A stretch of DNA of 41,212 bases from Clostridia bacterium (GCA_029061155.1 JAIDSQ010000085.1:1-41212); one strand, 5' to 3'; shown: positions 2,001 to 41,212, numbered from the stretch's first letter. Translations and numbers: made by a program. The notes: generated by a model not told the origin, from the sequence alone.

Positions 2001-2066
2001 AAACCGTATAAATGATGTACGGAAAACAGAGTTTCGGCGGGAAATCTGTTCATTACGTTTTTACTA

Positions 2067-2095
2067 TTGACAATTTTAGGCTGATTTTATATAAT
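2067..2095 (+). promoter_or_regulatory. Consensus sigma-A promoter: TTGACA-N17-TATAAT
   Basis: TTGACA 2067-2072, 17-bp spacer, TATAAT 2090-2095; upstream of the histidine kinase start at 2138. Confidence 0.8.
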
Positions 2096-2137
2096 CAGTA
2101 TGTGTATCATCATATGAATGGCGCGACGGAGTTTTAT

Positions 2138-4795
2138 ATGAGCCGTAAAGAAAAGATTACTAAAAAGCATTTCTTATCAAACCGCGGTCAACGCGTAATG
2201 TTGGTCGGCGTTATAGTTTGCGTTGTTATTTGTGCATTGTTGTTCAGTTTGCTGGGCGTGTTTATGAGTAAGAACACGAGTCACGCCGTCGATCATATTG
2301 GCGAAAAATCAATGCGTGAAATGAGCTATCAGCTTACCCAACGTTTCGAGACGGTAATGGAACAGCGCATAAGTATGATGCAAATGTTGGCGGATGACTT
2401 CGGCGCGGCGGAGACTCAGGAAGAGCGCGCGAAACTGGCAAGCAGCGCTGAGAATTGGAAGTTTAAGTATATTGCATTTATGCGCATAAACAAAGACCAT
2501 ATCGCCGAAGAAGAAGACGGAAGAACGATGGATTTCATTTCGGATAACACGTTCATTGTTACTTATTTGGTCCCGTTCAGACAGTCGGTTTTAGACGGTA
2601 ATCCCAAGATAGCCGTCGGCACCGGCACTGCGAAAGACGGCACCAAAGAGGATATCATAATGTGTTCCGTTCCCACAGACAAACACATTATGCCTAACGG
2701 TGAAAAAAGTATGGCGCTCGTCGCAGGGTTTTCCAGCGCTGATTTTATCAGTATGCTGAATATGAACTCCGAGGAAAGCAAGGATACCTCCGCATATATT
2801 ATACTTGAGGATGTGCGCGAAGACGGTGAAACTAACTCGCTGGTTTTAAAACGTGATGAAGACACCGAATACGCAAGCTTTTCCGCGTTGCTAAAAAACG
2901 AGTACGGAAGTTCGGATAATTCTATGGACGAAATTATCCGTGAATTAAACGAGTGTATGCGCAAAGACGAAGTGTATTCCAACATTATTCACGTTGAAGA
3001 TAAGCATATTCATATGTACTGCAATACATTGAGTAAGTCGGAATGGTATCTCGTAACGCTTACAAACAATTCCGAAATGAACGGCACGATAAGAGCTTTG
3101 AACAATCATTGGGTTATAATGATTGTCGTTACGGTCGCGGCAATAATCGTAATACTTGTAGGAATTTTCGCCGTTTATTACTATTTCAATAAGAAAACCC
3201 TGTTGCAGCTTGACCACGCGAGAGAGGCGGCAATTAATGCCAACAAAGCAAAGAGCGAATTTCTCTCCAATATGTCGCACGATATCCGTACGCCTATGAA
3301 TGCAATAGTCGGTATGACGTCGATTGCAACGTCTAATATAGATAACAAACAGCAGGTTCAGGATTGTCTCAAAAAGATAACGCTTTCAAGTAAGCATTTG
3401 CTTGGACTTATCAACGACGTGCTCGATATGTCTAAAATCGAAAGCGGAAAGATGACGCTCAATATGGAGAATATTTCTCTCCGCGAGATTATGGACGGAA
3501 TTGCCACTATCGTGCAGCCGCAGTTAAAGATAAAATCCCAGAAATTCGATATCTATATTCACGACATTATCAGCGAAAACGTATATTGCGACAGCGTCCG
3601 TCTTAATCAAGTGCTTTTGAATCTTTTGTCTAATGCGATTAAATTCACGCCCGAACAGGGTTCGATAGACATTGCACTCTGTCAGGAAAAATCACCGCTC
3701 GGCGAAAAATACGTACGCAATATTATTGACGTGCGCGATACGGGAATAGGAATGACGCCGCAGTTTATGGAAAAGATTTTCGAGTCATTCACCCGTGAAG
3801 ACAGTACACGCGTTCATAAGACGGAAGGTACCGGGCTTGGAATGGCGATTACAAAGTATATCGTCGACGCAATGCACGGAACAATCAACGTCGAGAGCGA
3901 ACTCGGCAAAGGCAGTCATTTCCATATCGTTCTCGACCTCGAAAAGGTGGAAACACCCGAAGAAGAAATGGTTTTGCCCGACTGGAATATGCTTGTAGTT
4001 GACGACGACGAGCAGTTATGCCGTTCGACGGTTGCATCGCTCAAAGGAATTGGTATTCGCTGTCAGTGGACGCTTTCGGGTGAAGACGCCGTTGAAAAGG
4101 CTATTAATGCGAACGGTGCGGGTGAAAAATTCGACGCTATTCTACTTGACTGGAAATTGCCCGGAATGGACGGACTTGAAACGGCGCGCAGGATTCGCAA
4201 GCAACTCGGCGATGAAATTCCTATTCTCCTCATTTCCGCATACGATTGTTCGGATATGGAAAAAGAGGCGCGCAAGGCTGGTATAAGCGGATTTATTTCC
4301 AAACCCTTATTCAAATCTACGCTGTATTACGGTTTGCGTAAGTTTACTCAGGAAAATGCGGAAAGCATTAAAGAAAATCAATCGGTATCAAAGAGTACGG
4401 ACCTGACCGACAAACATATCCTGCTTGCCGAGGACAACGACCTTAACTGGGAAATTGCCGAAATGCTATTGGAAGACGAGGGTATAAAGGTTGACAGGGC
4501 TGAAAACGGTAAGATATGCGTTGAAATGCTGAAAAATTCCGCACCAGGTACTTACGACGCAATACTGATGGATATACGTATGCCCGTTATGACGGGATAT
4601 GAGGCGACGGTTGAAATCCGCGCACTCGATCACCCCGATAAGCATTTGCCTATTATCGCAATGACGGCGGACGCTTTTGCCGACGACATGAAAAAATGTC
4701 TTGACTGCGGCATGAACGCGCATATTTCAAAGCCTATCGATATGGATTTGCTTAAATCAACGCTTTCAAAATTCCTCACAAAAGAAGACAAATAA
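2138..4795 (+). CDS. Membrane-bound hybrid sensor histidine kinase with two receiver domains
   Basis: Two TM helices flank an extracellular sensor region. HisKA H-box EFLSNMSHDIRTPMNAIVGM, N-box NQVLLNLLSNAIKFTP, G-boxes DTGIGM / GTGLGMAI. Two REC domains: VVDDDEQ...LLDWKLPGMDG...SKP and LAEDNDLNWE...MDIRMPVMTG...SKP. Start placed at ATG 2138 (GGAG RBS, MSRKEKITKK...) rather than 2012, because the consensus promoter lies between them. Confidence 0.9.
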   Translation: MSRKEKITKKHFLSNRGQRVMLVGVIVCVVICALLFSLLGVFMSKNTSHAVDHIGEKSMREMSYQLTQRFETVMEQRISMMQMLADDFGAAETQEERAKLASSAENWKFKYIAFMRINKDHIAEEEDGRTMDFISDNTFIVTYLVPFRQSVLDGNPKIAVGTGTAKDGTKEDIIMCSVPTDKHIMPNGEKSMALVAGFSSADFISMLNMNSEESKDTSAYIILEDVREDGETNSLVLKRDEDTEYASFSALLKNEYGSSDNSMDEIIRELNECMRKDEVYSNIIHVEDKHIHMYCNTLSKSEWYLVTLTNNSEMNGTIRALNNHWVIMIVVTVAAIIVILVGIFAVYYYFNKKTLLQLDHAREAAINANKAKSEFLSNMSHDIRTPMNAIVGMTSIATSNIDNKQQVQDCLKKITLSSKHLLGLINDVLDMSKIESGKMTLNMENISLREIMDGIATIVQPQLKIKSQKFDIYIHDIISENVYCDSVRLNQVLLNLLSNAIKFTPEQGSIDIALCQEKSPLGEKYVRNIIDVRDTGIGMTPQFMEKIFESFTREDSTRVHKTEGTGLGMAITKYIVDAMHGTINVESELGKGSHFHIVLDLEKVETPEEEMVLPDWNMLVVDDDEQLCRSTVASLKGIGIRCQWTLSGEDAVEKAINANGAGEKFDAILLDWKLPGMDGLETARRIRKQLGDEIPILLISAYDCSDMEKEARKAGISGFISKPLFKSTLYYGLRKFTQENAESIKENQSVSKSTDLTDKHILLAEDNDLNWEIAEMLLEDEGIKVDRAENGKICVEMLKNSAPGTYDAILMDIRMPVMTGYEATVEIRALDHPDKHLPIIAMTADAFADDMKKCLDCGMNAHISKPIDMDLLKSTLSKFLTKEDK

Positions 4796-31364: not shown

Positions 31365-34300
31365 ATGAAAAGAAAGAAAAATTTATTAGCCGTTGCAAGT
31401 TGCGCGCTTGCGGCGTTGATTACTTTCGGTGTTGTCGGTTGTAAAAAAGATGATAATACCTATAACCCGACAGGACCCACATCACCTACGGAATCGACGG
31501 AAACGGTTTCAGTTAAAAACGGAAATGCCACCGAGATTACCGGCGGTTATGAAAAGGGTACTGCGCGTTCAACGCAGACGGCCGAGTATCTTGGCGCGGT
31601 TGACCATATAGTCAAACCCGTAGAAGGCGTATATGACGAACATGAAACTTACGGAGTAAGGGTATATCCCACTTACGGCAAAGTTTTAAAAGGTTATACT
31701 GCAGAAGAGAGAAACGGGCTTATGAAAGAAAGCCACGCGCTTGCTCCTTCGCCCACGTGGAAGTCTTTGGGCATTTACAATGCAATCGACTCCGAGGGTT
31801 ATCTTTTAAAGAACGGTCAGCGTATTCCCTACAACGCAAACGACGGTTCCGATGATGATGAAGAGGACGAGACAGGCGAAATCATTTCGGGCGGACTTGA
31901 GGAAGAAAGCGGCGAGACACAGGAAGAGGGTTCAACGACCGTCAACAAGCAGTATAATCAGCAATACAGAATGTTGTATAAACACACTGCGGCTCTCACT
32001 CATTTCGGAGGCGGACTTTCAGACGACGAACCGCGTATCGTCAAAAAGATTACGGCTTTAACGCATGCAAAGCTCGAATCGACAACAATCACAGGATTAT
32101 ACGCCCCCGCCGGTGAAGTTGTTAAATTCGAAATGTCGCTCAGCGACTATAAATCCGCAGGCGGACTCAGAGTTCTTATAGGACAGAATTATAACCTGTC
32201 CCAGCACGTTTCAATGGAAGTTTCGGGAAACGGCATTAAAGGTACGGGTCTGAACCGTATGCCGGATATACTCAGTATATTCCAGTATAACGACAAGACG
32301 GGCGCCGTATACAAGGACGGCGATACCGTTACGTTCTACGTCGGCTCATTCTTCGGCGGGCCTATCTATTTCCGTCCCATAAGCAACAGCGTCGAACGCA
32401 AAATTACCGTAACTATTTCAGGCGCTGTAAAATATCAGCACTTCATTCTCGGTTCAACCACTCCCGAAGAGTACGAGTTCAACAAAAATACGACCGCACC
32501 TTATTTCGATCTGGAAGTATTTGACTCCGTTCGTTTCACAACTCATAAATTTGCAGCCTCCGGCGGGCTTGCCCTTAAAGATTTCACATACGAAAACTGC
32601 ACGGACGCGGCTGTTCTGTGGGATAAGATTGCTGAAGTTTCAACCCGTGTAAGGTGGAACGGACTTTCGGGTGCGAGCGCTCCCGTATACGTCATCGGCG
32701 ACTGCTACATAGCGGCGGGCGCGGCGTTTGCGAACCCCGGAAGAAACGGCGTTGTCTGCCCTCCCAGCTGGCTTGCGGAAGCTCTCAATTACAACAGAAT
32801 GGTCAACAGCGGAAGCTGGGGCACCATGCACGAGTATAACCACTGCTGGCAGGGTTACGGCCTCAAAAACAGCGGCGAAGTCGGCAACAATGCGGTTACG
32901 CTCCTGTCGTATTCGCTCTATACGAGAATTTCTCAAAGCAGAACGGCGGCTCCCGGCTGGAATAACGGAGCATGGAACAGATTTACAGACCCTTCAAAAT
33001 CGCTTGGCGAACTTTTAAGCTTAGGTGCGAACGGAAGTATCCGCGAGGATTTGTCTGTATATGCAACTCTTATACATAATATCGGTCAGGATGCGTTTAT
33101 AGGCGCGGCGAAGGGCGGTAAGGACAGCGGTGCGAACGTTTACTTCAACAACCTCGTAAATTCCACACATCTCGATATGACCTACTACTTTAACGATGTA
33201 CTTCATCTCGGCGTAGGTTCCGCAAGAGGAATTTCGCAGGAAACGGCGGACGCGGTAAAGGCTAAAAACTATCCTATGTTCGTGCCCGTAGCCTCCGTAT
33301 ATCAGGTTGGCAGAAGTATAATTAAGGACGGTACAAAACAGTACATAACCACCGCACAGCCTTTCACTTACGGCAGCGGCGCGTTCACGATGGACTTCAA
33401 CAATAAAAACAATTTCAAGGCAGGTACTTTCGCAAGCAAGGCGCTGGTTATACCCGACGGTTTTACGGCAAAGGTCGTAAGCGTTACACAGCCCAAGAGC
33501 GGTAAGGTGGAATTGCTTGAAAACAATCAGGTAAAATACACCCCTCAGAACAGCGAGGACGGACTGTATTCGGGCAACTTCAGAGTAACGCTAAGCATTA
33601 CGAAGGACGACGGCGCTTTCAAAGTTGACAACGTTGACCTTGTTATAAACCTTAAACAGCAAACCAATACCGCATTGGACAGAACTACTTACGTTTACAG
33701 CGACGAGTCCATAGTACCCTCAACGGACGCCGTTTATAATGCGTCAACCAAGGCATTTGATTTCGGCAGTTACAGCACAACCGAAACAAAGAAAAACGTC
33801 TGCACGCAGGAAACCAATACTCAGATATGGCAGGCAGGTTGGAATTACGACGACGCTACGTACAATAAAGACAGTAAGAATTACAGAGTAATGCCTGTAA
33901 ACAAAACCTTGCAGACTATGGAAGGCGTAATGTATCTCTCCAAAGCAGGAGATTACCGTTTCACGCTTAAAGGCAGGGGCAAAGCGACTCTTTATCTGTC
34001 ATACGATAACGGTGCAACTTGGGAAAATGCGCTTACGATAAACAGACCGAGCGGTAACGCATACATAGATTCCGAATATTCCGCACATACGTTTACAACA
34101 GACCGTAACTATGTTTATTTCAAGGTTGTGCTTTTGGTGACAAAAGAGAACGACTTCTTCGGTGTAGGTATAGCTTCAAAACAGGCAGACGGAACTTTCT
34201 CTGCATTTGCCAATGCAAAGGATGCAATTACAAACCCCGGTGTACACAAAGCAATTACAGAAGAATCGGGTAAGAAGTTCCAAACGGAATACCGCTACCA

Positions 34301-35198
34301 AAATGTGTATTCGTATTCGTGCATCGGCAATGATGTTGTTCCCGTTACCGAAAACAAGCTTATTTCCATAACTCATGAACCTTGGGACGAAACAAGGTTA
34401 GCCGATTTCCTGTTCGACGGAAAATCCGACACTTATTATCATAGTAAAAAAGGTGTTGCTATAACCTCAGATAAGCCGTTCGAGCTTGTAGTTGACCTCG
34501 GTTCTCTGCGTAAAGTAAATACTGTTACTTTCAACGGATACACCGGTAAAACAAACAATAACGGTATGGTTAAAACGTTTAAACTGTACGGAAGTAAAGA
34601 TAAAGTAACTTATTCACAGTTAACCGAAAAGACAGATAATCCTACAGGTTCTAAGGTTGAAGTAAGTTTTGACGAGGCTGAAATAAGATACTATAAGCTT
34701 GTCGTTACAGATACTTACAGCGGCAATCATTACTTCGCAATGAACAGCATTGTATTCTCGAGAAAGGCTGCTTTTGAAAACGGAAAAATGGTGTCGCCCC
34801 ACGATTTATCCGTGAAGTATACGGGCAGTGAATGGGCGACCAAAAACGTTCTTTGCGATTACGGTATCATTTATACCGCGGGCGCAGGCGCCTCTGTAGA
34901 ATACACTTTCACCGGTTCAAGGGTTGCTTACTTTGCGGATAAATCCGACGAATACGGCACGGTTGATATCTATATAGACGGAAAACTTGTCGCTTCCGAC
35001 GTCAGCCTTTCCGCAGGTAATAGCAACGCTCAGATTACCGAAACGCTTTACAATCCGTTCGGTGAATCGAATGCTACAAAAGCGGGTTCGCTTGCCTATA
35101 TATATGCCGAAGAGGCGCTTTCAAGCGGTGAACACGTATTGAAAATTGTCGGCAAGAGCGGAACTTTCAACGTTGATGCGTTCGCTTACTGGGGCTAA
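31365..35198 (+). CDS. M60-like (enhancin/mucinase-type) metallopeptidase lipoprotein with discoidin-like (F5/8 type C) domain
   Basis: Lipoprotein signal (LAALITFGVVGCKKDD). HEXXH motif in GTMHEYNHCWQGYG followed by GEVGNNAVTLLSYSLYTRIS, characteristic of M60-like peptidases. C-terminal ITHEPWDETRLADFLFDGKSDTYYHS...FELVVDLGSLRKVNTVTFNGYTG discoidin-like domain. RBS AAGGATG. Confidence 0.85.
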   Translation: MKRKKNLLAVASCALAALITFGVVGCKKDDNTYNPTGPTSPTESTETVSVKNGNATEITGGYEKGTARSTQTAEYLGAVDHIVKPVEGVYDEHETYGVRVYPTYGKVLKGYTAEERNGLMKESHALAPSPTWKSLGIYNAIDSEGYLLKNGQRIPYNANDGSDDDEEDETGEIISGGLEEESGETQEEGSTTVNKQYNQQYRMLYKHTAALTHFGGGLSDDEPRIVKKITALTHAKLESTTITGLYAPAGEVVKFEMSLSDYKSAGGLRVLIGQNYNLSQHVSMEVSGNGIKGTGLNRMPDILSIFQYNDKTGAVYKDGDTVTFYVGSFFGGPIYFRPISNSVERKITVTISGAVKYQHFILGSTTPEEYEFNKNTTAPYFDLEVFDSVRFTTHKFAASGGLALKDFTYENCTDAAVLWDKIAEVSTRVRWNGLSGASAPVYVIGDCYIAAGAAFANPGRNGVVCPPSWLAEALNYNRMVNSGSWGTMHEYNHCWQGYGLKNSGEVGNNAVTLLSYSLYTRISQSRTAAPGWNNGAWNRFTDPSKSLGELLSLGANGSIREDLSVYATLIHNIGQDAFIGAAKGGKDSGANVYFNNLVNSTHLDMTYYFNDVLHLGVGSARGISQETADAVKAKNYPMFVPVASVYQVGRSIIKDGTKQYITTAQPFTYGSGAFTMDFNNKNNFKAGTFASKALVIPDGFTAKVVSVTQPKSGKVELLENNQVKYTPQNSEDGLYSGNFRVTLSITKDDGAFKVDNVDLVINLKQQTNTALDRTTYVYSDESIVPSTDAVYNASTKAFDFGSYSTTETKKNVCTQETNTQIWQAGWNYDDATYNKDSKNYRVMPVNKTLQTMEGVMYLSKAGDYRFTLKGRGKATLYLSYDNGATWENALTINRPSGNAYIDSEYSAHTFTTDRNYVYFKVVLLVTKENDFFGVGIASKQADGTFSAFANAKDAITNPGVHKAITEESGKKFQTEYRYQNVYSYSCIGNDVVPVTENKLISITHEPWDETRLADFLFDGKSDTYYHSKKGVAITSDKPFELVVDLGSLRKVNTVTFNGYTGKTNNNGMVKTFKLYGSKDKVTYSQLTEKTDNPTGSKVEVSFDEAEIRYYKLVVTDTYSGNHYFAMNSIVFSRKAAFENGKMVSPHDLSVKYTGSEWATKNVLCDYGIIYTAGAGASVEYTFTGSRVAYFADKSDEYGTVDIYIDGKLVASDVSLSAGNSNAQITETLYNPFGESNATKAGSLAYIYAEEALSSGEHVLKIVGKSGTFNVDAFAYWG

Positions 35199-35963: not shown

Positions 35964-36848
35964 TTATAGTTTATTTCTGTAATTAAATTTTTTAAGAACC
36001 TGCTTTTTTCTAGCTGTTGTGACTTCGGTATAAATTTGGGTAGTGGCAACGCTTGCGTGACCTAAAATTTCCTGAACAGAGCGCAAATCGGCGCCGTTCG
36101 CAAGCAGGTTGGTAGCAAAAGTATGGCGCAGATAGTGCGGAGTGGATTTTGTATTTATCTGCGCTTTTTTTACATATTTTTTATAAATATCCTCAATCCC
36201 GTGAATTGTAATGGGTTGTCCGTATCTGTTGACAAAAAGATAATTGCAATCCGCCTTTTTGCGCTCTTTCAAAAGGGTTTTAAGCCTGTCCCATGTGGTA
36301 GGGGAAGATATGTAAATAAGACGTTGTTTTCTGCCTTTACCGTGAATTAACAGCGTCCGCTCACTTGAAATTATGTCGTCGATAGTAATGGAAGCGGCTT
36401 CGCCTATTCTTATTCCCGTGCTTATCAGTAAATCCATTAAAGCTGCGTCACGGATAAATTCTTTCTGCGCAAAGGAAGAAAGAGAAGAGGCATCAGTGTC
36501 AAAGCATTTAAGTATTTTGCTTATTTCCATTACCGTCAAAGTTTTCGGAAGTTTTCTTTCCTGCTTAAATCTGAATTTAAGTTTTTTAAAAGGTGAAGTT
36601 TCAATTATTTCTGTGTCAATCAAATAATTATAAAAATTTTTAAGAGTTATAATCTTTCTTCTTATAGAGGTATCTTTAAGTTTTAATTCAATGTTTAAAT
36701 GTGAAATAAAAGCGCAGATATCTGGTTGAAGAATATTGTTTTCAAAATTGAAAAACTGATTCAGGTCGCTTGTATAGGCTGCTAAAGTTTTTTGTGATAA
36801 GTTTTTAGTTGCTTGCAGATAGTTTATAAAATGAGATAAATAGTTCAT
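35964..36848 (-). CDS. Tyrosine recombinase/integrase (XerC/D-like)
   Basis: SAM-like N-terminal domain, then the catalytic set: STGIRIGEA (R), HGKGRKQR (K), HYLRHTFATNLL (HxxR), LGHASVATTQIYTEV (H...Y). Confidence 0.93.
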   Translation of the reverse strand: MNYLSHFINYLQATKNLSQKTLAAYTSDLNQFFNFENNILQPDICAFISHLNIELKLKDTSIRRKIITLKNFYNYLIDTEIIETSPFKKLKFRFKQERKLPKTLTVMEISKILKCFDTDASSLSSFAQKEFIRDAALMDLLISTGIRIGEAASITIDDIISSERTLLIHGKGRKQRLIYISSPTTWDRLKTLLKERKKADCNYLFVNRYGQPITIHGIEDIYKKYVKKAQINTKSTPHYLRHTFATNLLANGADLRSVQEILGHASVATTQIYTEVTTARKKQVLKKFNYRNKL

Positions 36849-36910
36849 AAATACTCCGATAAATTTTCAGTAATAAAAATTATATCAGAATTTAAAAATA
36901 TTTTTGCTAA

Positions 36911-36942
36911 TTTTGTCACATTTTGCAGATTTAGCTTGTCTT
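36911..36942 (+). promoter_or_regulatory. Putative promoter/operator motif TTTTGTCACA-N15-TTGTCTT upstream of the invertible cassette
   Basis: Same motif with identical spacing recurs at 40768-40799 upstream of the partial Abi-like ORF. TTGTCT could serve as -35 with a downstream TATATA-like -10 at about 36960. Confidence 0.5.
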
Positions 36943-36995
36943 AAATATATAAGTATATTTATATAACAAAGAAAATAGCTTTAAATTTTATATAA

Positions 36996-37030
36996 AATAA
37001 CTAAGAATTATACGAGGGAAATTTGTGAAA
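36996..37030 (+). repeat. Left arm of perfect 35-bp inverted repeat (contains RBS, GTG start, second codon)
   Basis: AATAACTAAGAATTATACGAGGGAAATTTGTGAAA; exact reverse complement at 40346-40380. Confidence 0.97.
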
Positions 37031-39325
37031 GCTCTCAATGAAGCGGTAAGCGATAAAATAATGGAATGTCTTAATAATTGTCGCACTGTAAATATAAGAA
37101 TTCCTGCAAACGAATCGTTTGCAGGTTATCCTTTTTTACCTAAATACAAGCTTTACTGTTATAATGAAAAGCAAAAGAAATTGTATGCGACTTCTCCTAA
37201 AATCGCCCCTATATTAAAAATACTGGCTTGGCTTATTACTGTTGTAATGTTCATCATCGACTGTATTGTTCTTTTACCTATTTCTTTAAACACGGTGGCT
37301 TCTCTTTCTTTTGAATTAATAGAAAACGGTTTGTCTTTTTTTAATAAGGACAAGACTTACGATATTGAATTTCTTGATGCCTTATCAAAATATTTCAGAT
37401 TTAAAAGAAAACCTTATAAGAAATTCAAAAAATTAAAAAAAGTATTTTATATATACTTTGAAAACGAGCCTTTAAAAGAAACTTACAATTCAATACTTTT
37501 ACTTTGTGAATTAATTAATACCAAAAGAATTGCCGATTCTGCCGTAGTAATCGTATCTAAGACAACTTTAAATGAGCCGTCCCAATGCATTTTACGATTA
37601 GAAAATAATGAAGAAGATAATAGTTTTATTTATGACTTTAACTCCGATATTCTTGGATATATCCGTAACGAACAATACGAAAATGCTACCGATGCAATTC
37701 GCAAAATGCTTAACGATAAAGGAATAAATAATTTAGTTGAATTTGAGTTTGTAATGCAGTGTCTTGCCTTTTGTTATAAAAACCTTGGCGTAAACGAATT
37801 TAAAAGACAATTCTCTGATTTCAATATCGCGGTTGATTATCATATCAATGCTGCCAAACGAAATAAGTTTGTTAAGTCAAGCGGGCTTGATGCAAACTTC
37901 TTAAACTTTTGCTATAATTGTCTGTTGACATACTACCATAACAGATCGGCTATTAGCAATGATAATTTTGACACTGTTTTTATAAATATAGTTAAAAAAA
38001 TAAAAGATGCACTCATTTCAAAAAACGAATATTTTTCGGCTGCGCGGCTTTTTGCCAAATTCGCATCTGCGGAAGATGCGGCAGATAACTATATTATTGC
38101 TTTTTTACATAATGAATTTATTAAAAGTACAGTTAACGATGAGTGCTACAATATTATTAATTCTTATGTTTCGACGTCACCCCGCGCAAAATTGTTTATC
38201 AATCTTTATAAACTCAATGAAGAAGAAGTGCCTGATGCCAATAAGGTCGAAGCTATTGTAAACCATATATGCGAAAATAAAGAATTAATTCCTGTCCTTC
38301 GTCTCTGCTTTTACTATTATGCTGTTAATTCAATATATAAAAGCGACAGATGTTCTGATAAATTTCTTAAAGCTTATAGAACAGCTTACGACGAAATCGA
38401 TTCCAGTGAATCGCTCAAATGTATTTTTGGTGCGCAGTTTCTACTTCTTTATACAACTGTTGAAGACGAAACACTGCACTCTAAATATGCTAAAACTGTA
38501 TCTCAAATGCTCAATTTTGTGCTCGAAAAAAGTGAGTTTTTGTCTGACAAAAAAACTTATCTAAAGATATGCCGTTCTTTGAACGGCCTTCGCTTAGACT
38601 GCTTCAGCGATAATCTGAATAAGATGACTGCAATGGAAAATGAGGCAAAGCGCTACGTTAAAGAGCAAATTTACTATTATATTAATTTAGGTGCTACATA
38701 CGCATTCAGAAGTAATTCAGCATCGGACGATTATAAATCGGCAATTTCCTCCTACAACAAAATAAAACGCTTAGTAAATAAAAATGTTCCATTATGTGTT
38801 AAAGCGTCATATTTTAACAATTTGACCGTTTTCGAATATTTAAACGCCCCTTCAAAAGAAACGGCGAAAAAAGCATATATAAAACTTAATAATTATGTAA
38901 CGGCACAATATGGCAGCAGTGTTATTACGGAAGAGCGTCGTCATTTAGCTATTAATATTTTAATATTCGCCATTTTAGGTGATTCACCTGAACAGACCAT
39001 TACAAATCTTTTCGACAATACGGCAACAATTATAGAAAGCGACAATTACTTCAAATTTTACTTTCATCAAGTAAAATATTTATATGCTGCATTACACGGC
39101 AAGTCTATACAAATTGATAAAACTCAAGACAGCGTGTTTTTTACAAATAAAAAATCATTCTTTGAACAAAAATATGAGGTTATGAATAACGTCGCATTAA
39201 ATGGAGGCGCCACTTTATCAGAGTTAAATTGCATACTGAAAGAAAAACTTAGCTTGTTTAAAAAAGACTATGAATATTTTAAACGTCCAGATTTATTTAG
39301 TCTTGTCGAAAGATGGTATGAGTAA
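37025..39325 (+). CDS. Membrane protein with large helical (TPR-like) region; expression-competent ORF in this orientation
   Basis: GTG start inside the left inverted repeat with GAGGG RBS. Hydrophobic segment ILKILAWLITVVMFIIDCIVLLPISL, then a long Tyr/Leu-rich all-helical region. No recognised family. Confidence 0.85.
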   Translation: MKALNEAVSDKIMECLNNCRTVNIRIPANESFAGYPFLPKYKLYCYNEKQKKLYATSPKIAPILKILAWLITVVMFIIDCIVLLPISLNTVASLSFELIENGLSFFNKDKTYDIEFLDALSKYFRFKRKPYKKFKKLKKVFYIYFENEPLKETYNSILLLCELINTKRIADSAVVIVSKTTLNEPSQCILRLENNEEDNSFIYDFNSDILGYIRNEQYENATDAIRKMLNDKGINNLVEFEFVMQCLAFCYKNLGVNEFKRQFSDFNIAVDYHINAAKRNKFVKSSGLDANFLNFCYNCLLTYYHNRSAISNDNFDTVFINIVKKIKDALISKNEYFSAARLFAKFASAEDAADNYIIAFLHNEFIKSTVNDECYNIINSYVSTSPRAKLFINLYKLNEEEVPDANKVEAIVNHICENKELIPVLRLCFYYYAVNSIYKSDRCSDKFLKAYRTAYDEIDSSESLKCIFGAQFLLLYTTVEDETLHSKYAKTVSQMLNFVLEKSEFLSDKKTYLKICRSLNGLRLDCFSDNLNKMTAMENEAKRYVKEQIYYYINLGATYAFRSNSASDDYKSAISSYNKIKRLVNKNVPLCVKASYFNNLTVFEYLNAPSKETAKKAYIKLNNYVTAQYGSSVITEERRHLAINILIFAILGDSPEQTITNLFDNTATIIESDNYFKFYFHQVKYLYAALHGKSIQIDKTQDSVFFTNKKSFFEQKYEVMNNVALNGGATLSELNCILKEKLSLFKKDYEYFKRPDLFSLVERWYE

Positions 39326-40351
39326 CTTGTTTAACAGTAAAATTAAATAAATCGTACGGTCATCGTTATTAATAAATTTAATAGAAAGATTTGCCGAGCT
39401 ACATTTTGAAATGGTAGGATTAGGAGTAATATCAAAAAGGTAAGCTTTATCTCCGCTTACAATAAAATCAAAGCGACCAACAGAATCAAATCTTAGGATT
39501 GAATAAGCCTTTTTTGCTTGTTCTATGATTAAATTTGAAAGATTATTGTTATATATTTCAAAATCATAATTATCGTTTGCCACTGTTACGTAATCCAAAT
39601 AATCATTATCCTTTAATATTTTAACCGGCGGCGCAGCAAAAATATTACCATTCCATGGAAGAATCGTACATTCAACTTCTGTCCCTTCAATAAATTCTTC
39701 CAATATAACGGTCTTATATTCACTTATTGCGCTTCTAACTAAGGAAACAATATTTTTGAATTGTTGCGAGCTGTCGAATTTCTTTATTCCAATACTTGCG
39801 GATTCACTATTAGGTTTGAGTAAAATTTTATTATATTTACTAATAAAATTTTTAATAAGCGCCTCATTCACATCAGTAAGAAATAAACGTTGAGGCATTC
39901 TTATATTGGATTGTAGCAAATCATGCATCAATCTTTTGTTACCCCCTAAAAAGGAAGACGACGAATTAGAAGATATATTTATAAAACCATAATATTCGCA
40001 CAAAAGAGGAATTAAACAACGACGTCCAGCACCACTAAGATTTTGCGCCATTGAATAAACATAAACATTGTGATATTGTTTTTTTAGTTCTGGAGCTAGC
40101 GAAATAAACTCATCCTCACTGTCAAAAGAATATAAGCGCAAGTTATTTATTGCATGAAACGCATCTTCAATAAGTGCAATTTCATCTTCATATACACATT
40201 CGGAAATATGTAAATCGTCGTTAGATGTCTTCGCAATAGAATTGTATACAAAAACAATACAACTATCATCAAAATTTAAATTATTACTTTTTAAATACTC
40301 AAGTTTTGCAGTATATTCATCTTTTATTTGTTTTTCATCGGTGATTTTCAC
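39293..40351 (-). CDS. ATP-grasp protein, D-Ala-D-Ala ligase-like; second ORF of the invertible cassette
   Basis: GTG start inside the right inverted repeat. KILLKPNSESASIGIKKF, VILEEFIEGTEVECTILPWNG, SVGRFDFIVSGDKAYLFDITPNPTIS match the ATP-grasp layout of the Ddl family. Overlaps the 3' end of 37025-39325 by 33 bp, tail to tail. Confidence 0.85.
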   Translation of the reverse strand: MKITDEKQIKDEYTAKLEYLKSNNLNFDDSCIVFVYNSIAKTSNDDLHISECVYEDEIALIEDAFHAINNLRLYSFDSEDEFISLAPELKKQYHNVYVYSMAQNLSGAGRRCLIPLLCEYYGFINISSNSSSSFLGGNKRLMHDLLQSNIRMPQRLFLTDVNEALIKNFISKYNKILLKPNSESASIGIKKFDSSQQFKNIVSLVRSAISEYKTVILEEFIEGTEVECTILPWNGNIFAAPPVKILKDNDYLDYVTVANDNYDFEIYNNNLSNLIIEQAKKAYSILRFDSVGRFDFIVSGDKAYLFDITPNPTISKCSSANLSIKFINNDDRTIYLILLLNKLLIPSFDKTK

Positions 40352-40380
40352 AAATTTCCCTCGTATAATTCTTAGTTATT
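40346..40380 (-). repeat. Right arm of perfect 35-bp inverted repeat (contains RBS, GTG start, second codon on minus strand)
   Basis: TTTCACAAATTTCCCTCGTATAATTCTTAGTTATT, reverse complement of 36996-37030. Confidence 0.97.
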
Positions 40381-40400
40381 GAAGGAAAAAAGAAATTAAT

Positions 40401-40441
40401 AAAACGATGTCAAATTAATAATTACGCTTTGACATCGTTTT
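40401..40441. terminator. Bidirectional terminator-like hairpin just outside the right inverted repeat
   Basis: AAAACGATGTCAAA-ttaataattacgc-TTTGACATCGTTTT. Confidence 0.65.
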
Positions 40442-40443
40442 AC

Positions 40444-40913: not shown

Positions 40914-41212
40914 GTGCTGAACGACGACATCGATTTTAAAATGTTATTTCCGCTGATGACTTTTGAAAGTGACGAAGAATATACTTGTCAGAAATATTTG
41001 AAGACGCGAGGCTTATATCTTTATAAACAGGTTTATGATGCGTTGGTTAAGTGGACACCCAATGTTAATGAAATTAAATATCATCAGTTTTCAAATTTAA
41101 TTCGCTATGATAAAGGAATACGCGATAAACTATATATTTATCTGGCTGCGGCGGAAGAGTATCTGAGAAATATTATTTTTGATGAAATTGAGATAGATAA
41201 AAAACTAAAGGA
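40914..41212 (+). CDS. Partial ORF running off the right edge; possible Abi-like protein
   Basis: GAGG RBS, GTG start: MLNDDIDFKMLFPLMTFESDEEYTCQKYLKTRGLYLYKQVYDALVKWTPNVNEIKYHQFSNLIRYDKGIRDKLYIYLAAAEEYLRNIIFDEIEIDKKLK. YDKGIRDKLYIYLAAAEEYLRN resembles the YD..LR..L......E..LR segment of Abi_2 proteins. Open to the end of the window. Confidence 0.45.
   Translation, partial: MLNDDIDFKMLFPLMTFESDEEYTCQKYLKTRGLYLYKQVYDALVKWTPNVNEIKYHQFSNLIRYDKGIRDKLYIYLAAAEEYLRNIIFDEIEIDKKLK

Follow-up and report, generated by a model that had tools for sequence, protein, structure and literature searches.

How are two unrelated genes expressed when each begins inside one arm of the same perfect inverted repeat? 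The question is raised by positions 36996-40380 of a 41,212-nucleotide stretch of DNA from a Clostridia bacterium (GCA_029061155.1, JAIDSQ010000085.1:1-41212), hereafter the window, where two convergent open reading frames (ORFs), one for a largely helical membrane protein (ORF A) and one for an ATP-grasp enzyme (ORF B), carry identical ribosome-binding sites (RBS) and start codons in opposite orientations. The first-pass annotation, made from the sequence alone, held that inversion places one ORF or the other behind the same upstream region. The best explanation reached here is that the locus is very probably a site-specific inversion switch, in which a two-gene cassette turns over behind a fixed recombinase-side flank and the gene in the distal position is predicted to be silent.

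The repeat arms and the neighbouring recombinase

The left arm (36996-37030, + strand) consists of a core site (36996-37012) followed by the RBS and start of ORF A, and the right arm (40346-40380, - strand) consists of a core site (40364-40380) with the RBS and start of ORF B. The arms are complementary at 35 of 35 positions and separated by 3315 nt, and their core sites are identical at 17 of 17. No other spaced inverted repeat in the window has perfect arms of at least 18 bp; the chance expectation of a 35-bp match in 41 kb is about 1e-11 by hand estimate, and a chance origin is excluded. The left core reads AATAA-CTAAGAA-TTATA, its last base being atypical, and is followed by the RBS GAGGG (37014-37018), the start codon GTG (37025-37027) and the second codon AAA; both ORF starts read ...GAGGGAAATTT|GTG-AAA within their own arms. 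In the sequenced orientation ORF A (37025-39325, + strand, 766 amino acids [aa], GTG start) adjoins the fixed flank and ORF B (39293-40351, - strand, 352 aa, GTG start) takes the distal, predicted silent position; their 3′ ends overlap by 33 nt. The sequences outside the two arms are unrelated. The earlier description of a perfect 35-bp repeat around two convergent ORFs, with GAGGG, GTG and AAA in each arm and divergence immediately beyond, is confirmed by these readings.

Next to the cassette, 148 bp outside the left arm and reading away from it, lies a gene (35964-36848, - strand) for a dedicated XerC/D-type tyrosine recombinase of 294 aa, the proposed invertase. It matches Pfam Phage_integrase at 2.1e-40 and the XerD structure 1a0p at 1.7e-30, with the R..K..HxxR..H..Y blocks aligned, so that its catalytic blocks are intact. 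Its scores fall below the NCBIfam equivalog cut-offs for XerC (238.7 bits against 335) and XerD (233.3 against 330), and it does not appear to be a XerC/XerD chromosome dimer resolvase. The same genome holds two further, more distant matches to the recombinase. Origin in a phage or prophage module was considered and lacks support, as IMG/VR yielded no close relatives on viral contigs and only two relatives in all, at 31-33% identity. Recombinases often neighbour anti-phage genes, where their function is unexplained (2025 paper, PMC12529663). This one probably catalyses the flipping of the cassette. The first-pass proposal of an either/or switch is supported, and what was overlooked is this adjacent recombinase and the widespread class of loci to which the cassette belongs.

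Related loci, recombination sites and signs of inversion

Relatives were sought in 94 genomes of the same genus and in a broad scan of 85,462 species genomes. Orthologues of the recombinase with 71-85% identity occur in about 17 of the 94 and at about 50% in five more, and orthologues with 71-87% identity adjoin the same site in many genomes. The motif AATAACTnnnnATTATT, mostly followed by an RBS, recurs upstream of most orthologues with different genes behind it; motif and RBS together were found in 14 of the 94 genomes, and a reversed control gave 0. The broad scan contributed 80 further loci, nearly all from Clostridia or other Bacillota, a named host being Anaerocaecibacter muris of the family Pumilibacteraceae. 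Many of these relatives display the full anatomy, in which a first site, mostly 60-230 bp from the recombinase, is followed by a convergent gene pair and the inverted second site, and some genomes (for example G026 and the DVIU01 genome) hold two or three loci with differing spacers.

Across 27 complete cassettes the core site is AATAA-N7-TTATT, with hardly any variation in AATAA and TTATT and a variable 7-nt spacer. Both sites of a pair carry the same spacer in all 27 cassettes, comparison of different loci shows a shared spacer in just 10 of 351 cases, and 19 different spacers occur. The overlap region used by a tyrosine recombinase is expected to behave in this way. In 26 of 28 pairs the 3′ ends of the convergent genes overlap, so that a transcript traversing one gene would continue into the other in antisense. 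In two loci the arms are 58-64 bp long and extend far beyond the 17-bp core, with unrelated genes behind them (L180 7031-7094/9827-9890 and L190 4516-4573/9840-9897); their inner-arm identity needs gene conversion or selection, because crossover at the core alone would not maintain it. Four complete cassettes have no directly adjacent recombinase (L180 820-4645, L197 114-2394, L198 7308-11368 and L203 7716-11779) and are possibly orphans acted on in trans.

One sign of inversion is that assemblies tend to break at the site. A contig end lies within 250 nt upstream of the recombinase in 27 of 78 recombinase contigs where 1.24 would be expected at random, and in 10 of the 34 contigs of at least 50 kb where 0.08 would be expected; a mixture of orientations is the simplest cause. 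Genome G026 goes further: contig C4, from the recombinase side, and contig C30, from the distal side, both run into one identical stretch of 76 nt, made up of the site and 59 nt leading into one ORF, and outside the site the two flanks have only one base in common. No other copy of that ORF start was found in the genome.

Relatives with the same gene pair in opposite orientations are a further sign. Where the cassette encodes the immune system Thoeris, ThsA adjoins the recombinase in four loci (L124, L130, L151 and L167) and ThsB in L156. The ATP-grasp gene adjoins it in L142, L143, L176 and L180, and its partner does so in the window, L129 and L162. Opposite orientations also occur in the TIR-kinase (L182, L087) and GNAT-SHMT (L117, L195) relatives, giving four pair types in all (L130/L156, L142/L162, L182/L087 and L117/L195). 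The first-pass view of the segment as invertible gains support from the recombinase, the matched spacers, the contig breaks, the junctions of both flanks in G026 and the two-orientation relatives.

Expression, cassette contents and rival explanations

The fixed recombinase-side flank (36849-36995, + strand) was recognised as a divergent promoter region by alignment of relatives. Pointing into the cassette is a promoter of the form TTG[A/C]AA-N17-TA..AT (TTGAAA/TTGCAA-N17-TAAAAT), whose -10 box stands 6-9 nt before the site in strict register in 14 of 43 relatives, where shuffling expects 0; distal flanks score at chance level. In the window and in G027 an insertion of about 85 nt (window 36903-36980; TTTGTCACATTTTG...TTGTCT) separates the conserved promoter halves, and is possibly a regulatory insertion. 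Cassette-facing terminator-like hairpins occur in 7 of 21 distal flanks, the window included (0.35 expected), versus 0 of 21 recombinase-side flanks. The window's hairpin (40399-40443), with a 16-bp stem flanked by A/T on both sides, is predicted to be a bidirectional terminator; at -18.5 kcal/mol (z = -6.3) it is called terminator-like, and its loop of 13 causes it to be missed under a stricter loop limit. In the clade comprising L176, L180, L182 and L190, the stretch from recombinase to site contains another inverted repeat (CTCCTCGAAATTTT...AATTTCGAGGAG), perhaps an operator for control of the recombinase.

Together, the placement of promoter, terminator and RBS agrees with a role of inversion in selecting the expressed ORF. 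The adjacent recombinase would recognise the AATAA-N7-TTATT core of each arm and exchange strands inside the 7-nt spacer, which would turn the 3.4-kb segment round. Transcription would come in from the fixed recombinase-side flank, and since each gene carries its own RBS and start codon along, the ORF nearest the recombinase would be the one translated. The other ORF would lie antisense downstream, shut off from outside transcription by the distal terminator and therefore silent or weakly expressed, so that a cell would make mainly one of the two proteins and the population would be mixed. Expression of only one ORF at a time would fit the placement of promoter and terminator; exclusivity itself is a prediction from these sequence features.

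ORF A has a single strong membrane segment near residue 66, is almost all helix in the remainder and matches no family; its predicted structure is a low-confidence helical model (predicted local distance difference test score, pLDDT, 39.5). ORF B is a relative of D-Ala-D-Ala ligase (Pfam Dala_Dala_lig_C, 1.4e-16), and its match to NCBIfam Ddl (3e-22, 79 bits) lies so far under the curated cut-off of 310 that it is no housekeeping Ddl. Most members of its family alignment retain CRxDxR-like and DINxxPT-like motifs, the window versions being GRFDF and DITPNPT. The earlier description of ORF A as helical with one membrane segment and ORF B as an ATP-grasp enzyme is thus upheld by the profile searches and the low-confidence model. 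Neither ORF matched a PADLOC model, and the pair does not appear to be Thoeris, which would call for homologues of ThsA (SIR2-STALD) and ThsB (TIR).

Cassette genes cluster into co-inherited pairs. Five cassettes encode Thoeris, with ThsA matches from 1.4e-142 to 4e-58 in L124, L130, L151, L156 and L167; the TIR partner matches ThsB (down to 4e-19) in L151, L156 and L167, and those of L124 and L130 match only generic TIR or PDC-S66 models. Ahead of its TIR gene the L124 cassette also contains (1181-2391) a second, broken ThsA-like frame made up of two ORFs that overlap. Other pairs combine TIR-TM with a P-loop kinase-like protein (L182, L087), a glycosyltransferase with a CAP12/Pycsar-like TIR protein (L197, L183), TIR-STAND with SHMT (L171), TIR-TPR with ATP-grasp and radical SAM (L181), AAA-Mrr with a carbamoyltransferase (L127), and a P-loop membrane protein with a GNAT-SHMT fusion (L117, L190 and L195, and by position and size L198 and L203). 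Most non-Thoeris cassettes encode proteins without an assigned system.

The window belongs to a group in which a Ddl-like ATP-grasp protein is accompanied by a large partner, about 560 or 770-800 aa long. These partners vary: a P-loop stands at the start of some but not of others, the window's among the latter. A single family for all of them was rejected, since ORF A gave no match to the P-loop family of 777-800 aa or to the family of 560 aa, and weak P0001 matches in G025 and G032 were rejected because they fall on an unrelated AdhE-like protein of about 804 aa. The 560-aa partner gave no match outside its cassette context in 388 genomes of the class, in a search without positive control. 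The two window proteins probably act together in a single conflict or defence module, since families of gene pairs stay together and five of the cassettes encode Thoeris. The binary protein-identity switch of the first-pass annotation keeps its switch, and the alternative identities probably give way to partners of a single module.

The content of the slot is also replaced. In loci L181 and L183, from different assemblies, the left flanks align over 4.9 kb with 94.1% identity and the right flanks over 3.1 kb with 95.5%; both alignments stop at the sites, between which nothing is shared, and the two loci have different spacers. The same pattern with shorter flanks is seen in L142/L143 and L176/L190, and 14 changes of content type are counted along the recombinase tree, against a mean of 14.0 after shuffling. 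In these relatives the slot is conserved while its cassettes are replaced, with boundaries at the recombination site in all three comparisons; the agent may be either the recombinase or homologous recombination between flanking sequences, which would leave the same trace. Linked gene pairs would accordingly be exchangeable modules in a slot tended by the recombinase, many of them encoding anti-phage or conflict functions, and the window pair would form a defence or conflict module of two components that do not both reach full expression at one time.

Several points weigh against the inversion switch. The window assembly displays a single orientation, and the support for inversion consists of assembled sequences from G026 and other relatives rather than from the window's own cassette. 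The contig breaks could partly reflect other repeats, the double junction of G026 comes from one genome in which a second copy of the ORF elsewhere could mimic it, and the second flank junction was looked for in G026:C10 and G057:C14 and not found. A promoter scan found no consensus promoter in the window's own flank copy, where the insertion splits the conserved element. Finally, ThsB makes the signal that activates ThsA and both proteins are required, so a strict either/or Thoeris would be inert; either/or makes little sense there, and expression of those cassettes may be leaky or time-shared. Two readings considered for Thoeris are time-sharing by frequent flipping and the deliberate disarming of a fraction of the population.

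As a rival explanation, time-sharing supposes flips so frequent and proteins so long-lived that most cells hold both partners, the cassette setting their ratio or the unarmed fraction. It would rescue Thoeris cassettes, useless if one protein alone were ever present, and the very common assembly breaks at the site suggest frequent mixing, but the terminators and antisense overlap look fit to exclude the distal gene, and this account is rather unlikely. Somewhat less likely again is that the sites are the ends of a mobile or exchangeable element, whose recombinase captures and swaps two-gene cassettes in the manner of a minimal integron or cassette exchange, with inversion as a by-product. The near-identical flanks around unrelated interiors in L181/L183, the independence of content from the recombinase tree and the orphan cassettes all speak for capture; mobility alone, however, leaves unexplained why inverted sites with RBS and starts stand exactly at the switch point, and spacers that match within a pair and rarely between loci favour inversion over exchange between cassettes. 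Constitutive expression of both genes from their own flanks, the repeat being a homogenised RBS region without recombination, is very improbable: convergent genes can each own a promoter and the arms do hold identical RBS regions, but this accounts neither for the adjacent recombinase, the palindromic core upstream of the RBS and the matched spacers, nor for the two junctions in G026 and distal flanks without promoter signal. Misjoined reads can practically be dismissed as the source of the inverted repeat, for although the assembly is fragmented into 180 contigs, independent assemblies show this anatomy too, with contigs reaching several hundred kb. The inversion switch remains the preferred explanation.

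Elsewhere in the window, a single ORF of 7625 aa (8275-31152, + strand), neither half of which has a Pfam match at 1e-5, is probably a giant surface or adhesion protein. It is followed by a mucin-protease-like protein of 1277 aa with Peptidase_M60 and F5/8-type C domains (31365-35198, + strand). A Flg_new/InlB-type repeat protein (1023-2000, + strand) precedes a hybrid histidine kinase with response-regulator domains (2012-4795, + strand), and a 99-aa ORF without family match (40914-41212, + strand) is truncated by the contig end.

Significance and comparison with known systems

No description of invertible Thoeris, of two-gene immune cassettes or of the recombinase slot was found in the literature, coverage of which was incomplete, so that an earlier description is possible. 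Within that coverage the precedents concern either/or inversion only. The locus is real and has a plausible claim to represent a new class of immune locus. The fuller proposal, that a recombinase-kept slot holds one interchangeable convergent pair, such as Thoeris ThsA/ThsB, TIR-kinase or ATP-grasp with a STAND/TPR-like protein, and flips it so that the partners alternate and the armed state is transient or partial, is tentative, with the balance tilting slightly against it. Thoeris-type systems need sensor and effector together, yet the wiring places one of them behind the promoter; either inversion keeps potentially toxic immunity disarmed while arming a subpopulation, or the current picture of two-component immune systems is incomplete. 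In practice, the recombinase with a pair of AATAA-N7-TTATT sites is a simple marker for finding new two-gene immune or conflict systems, the slot can explain one class of breaks in the assembled genomes of gut Clostridia, and the cassettes offer natural, compact either/or gene switches.

One close parallel is Ureaplasma parvum, in which inversion at short inverted repeats alternates two neighbouring, different ORFs at UU172/UU171 and mba/UU376 (PMC3047005), with tyrosine recombinases proposed as mediators (PMC3599477). Expression of two unlike ORFs alternates there as it would here, but in Ureaplasma a promoter and N-terminal segment inverts between two fixed genes, whereas here both genes would invert behind a fixed flank; and Ureaplasma switches surface antigens, whereas this cassette family carries immune or conflict genes with a recombinase at the locus. 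In phage Mu (gin S/U), R64 (Rci pilV) and Moraxella (piv tfpQ/I), too, a recombinase determines which coding sequence stands behind a single fixed expression start. Those tail-fibre, shufflon and pilin switches exchange variants of one protein, usually C-terminal parts, whereas the cassettes would swap whole unrelated proteins with their own start codons.

In Streptococcus pneumoniae, the tyrosine recombinase PsrA inverts DNA at phase-variable type I restriction specificity loci (PMC4948785, PMC7096588). The inversion there likewise alters a phage-defence-related protein, but the hsdS genes recombine into variants of one specificity subunit, whereas here separate, unrelated partner genes would alternate. 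Clostridioides difficile provides site-specific recombination at short inverted repeats within the Clostridia, in segments of 154-230 bp, mostly intergenic, that control neighbouring genes (PMC5903667; RecV, PMC7446863). Unlike the window cassette, those segments hold no alternative gene pair. Thoeris itself comprises ThsA (SIR2-STALD) and ThsB (TIR), the genes of which are usually co-directional neighbours. The cassettes of five relatives encode ThsA and a TIR partner, but as convergent genes in an invertible segment.

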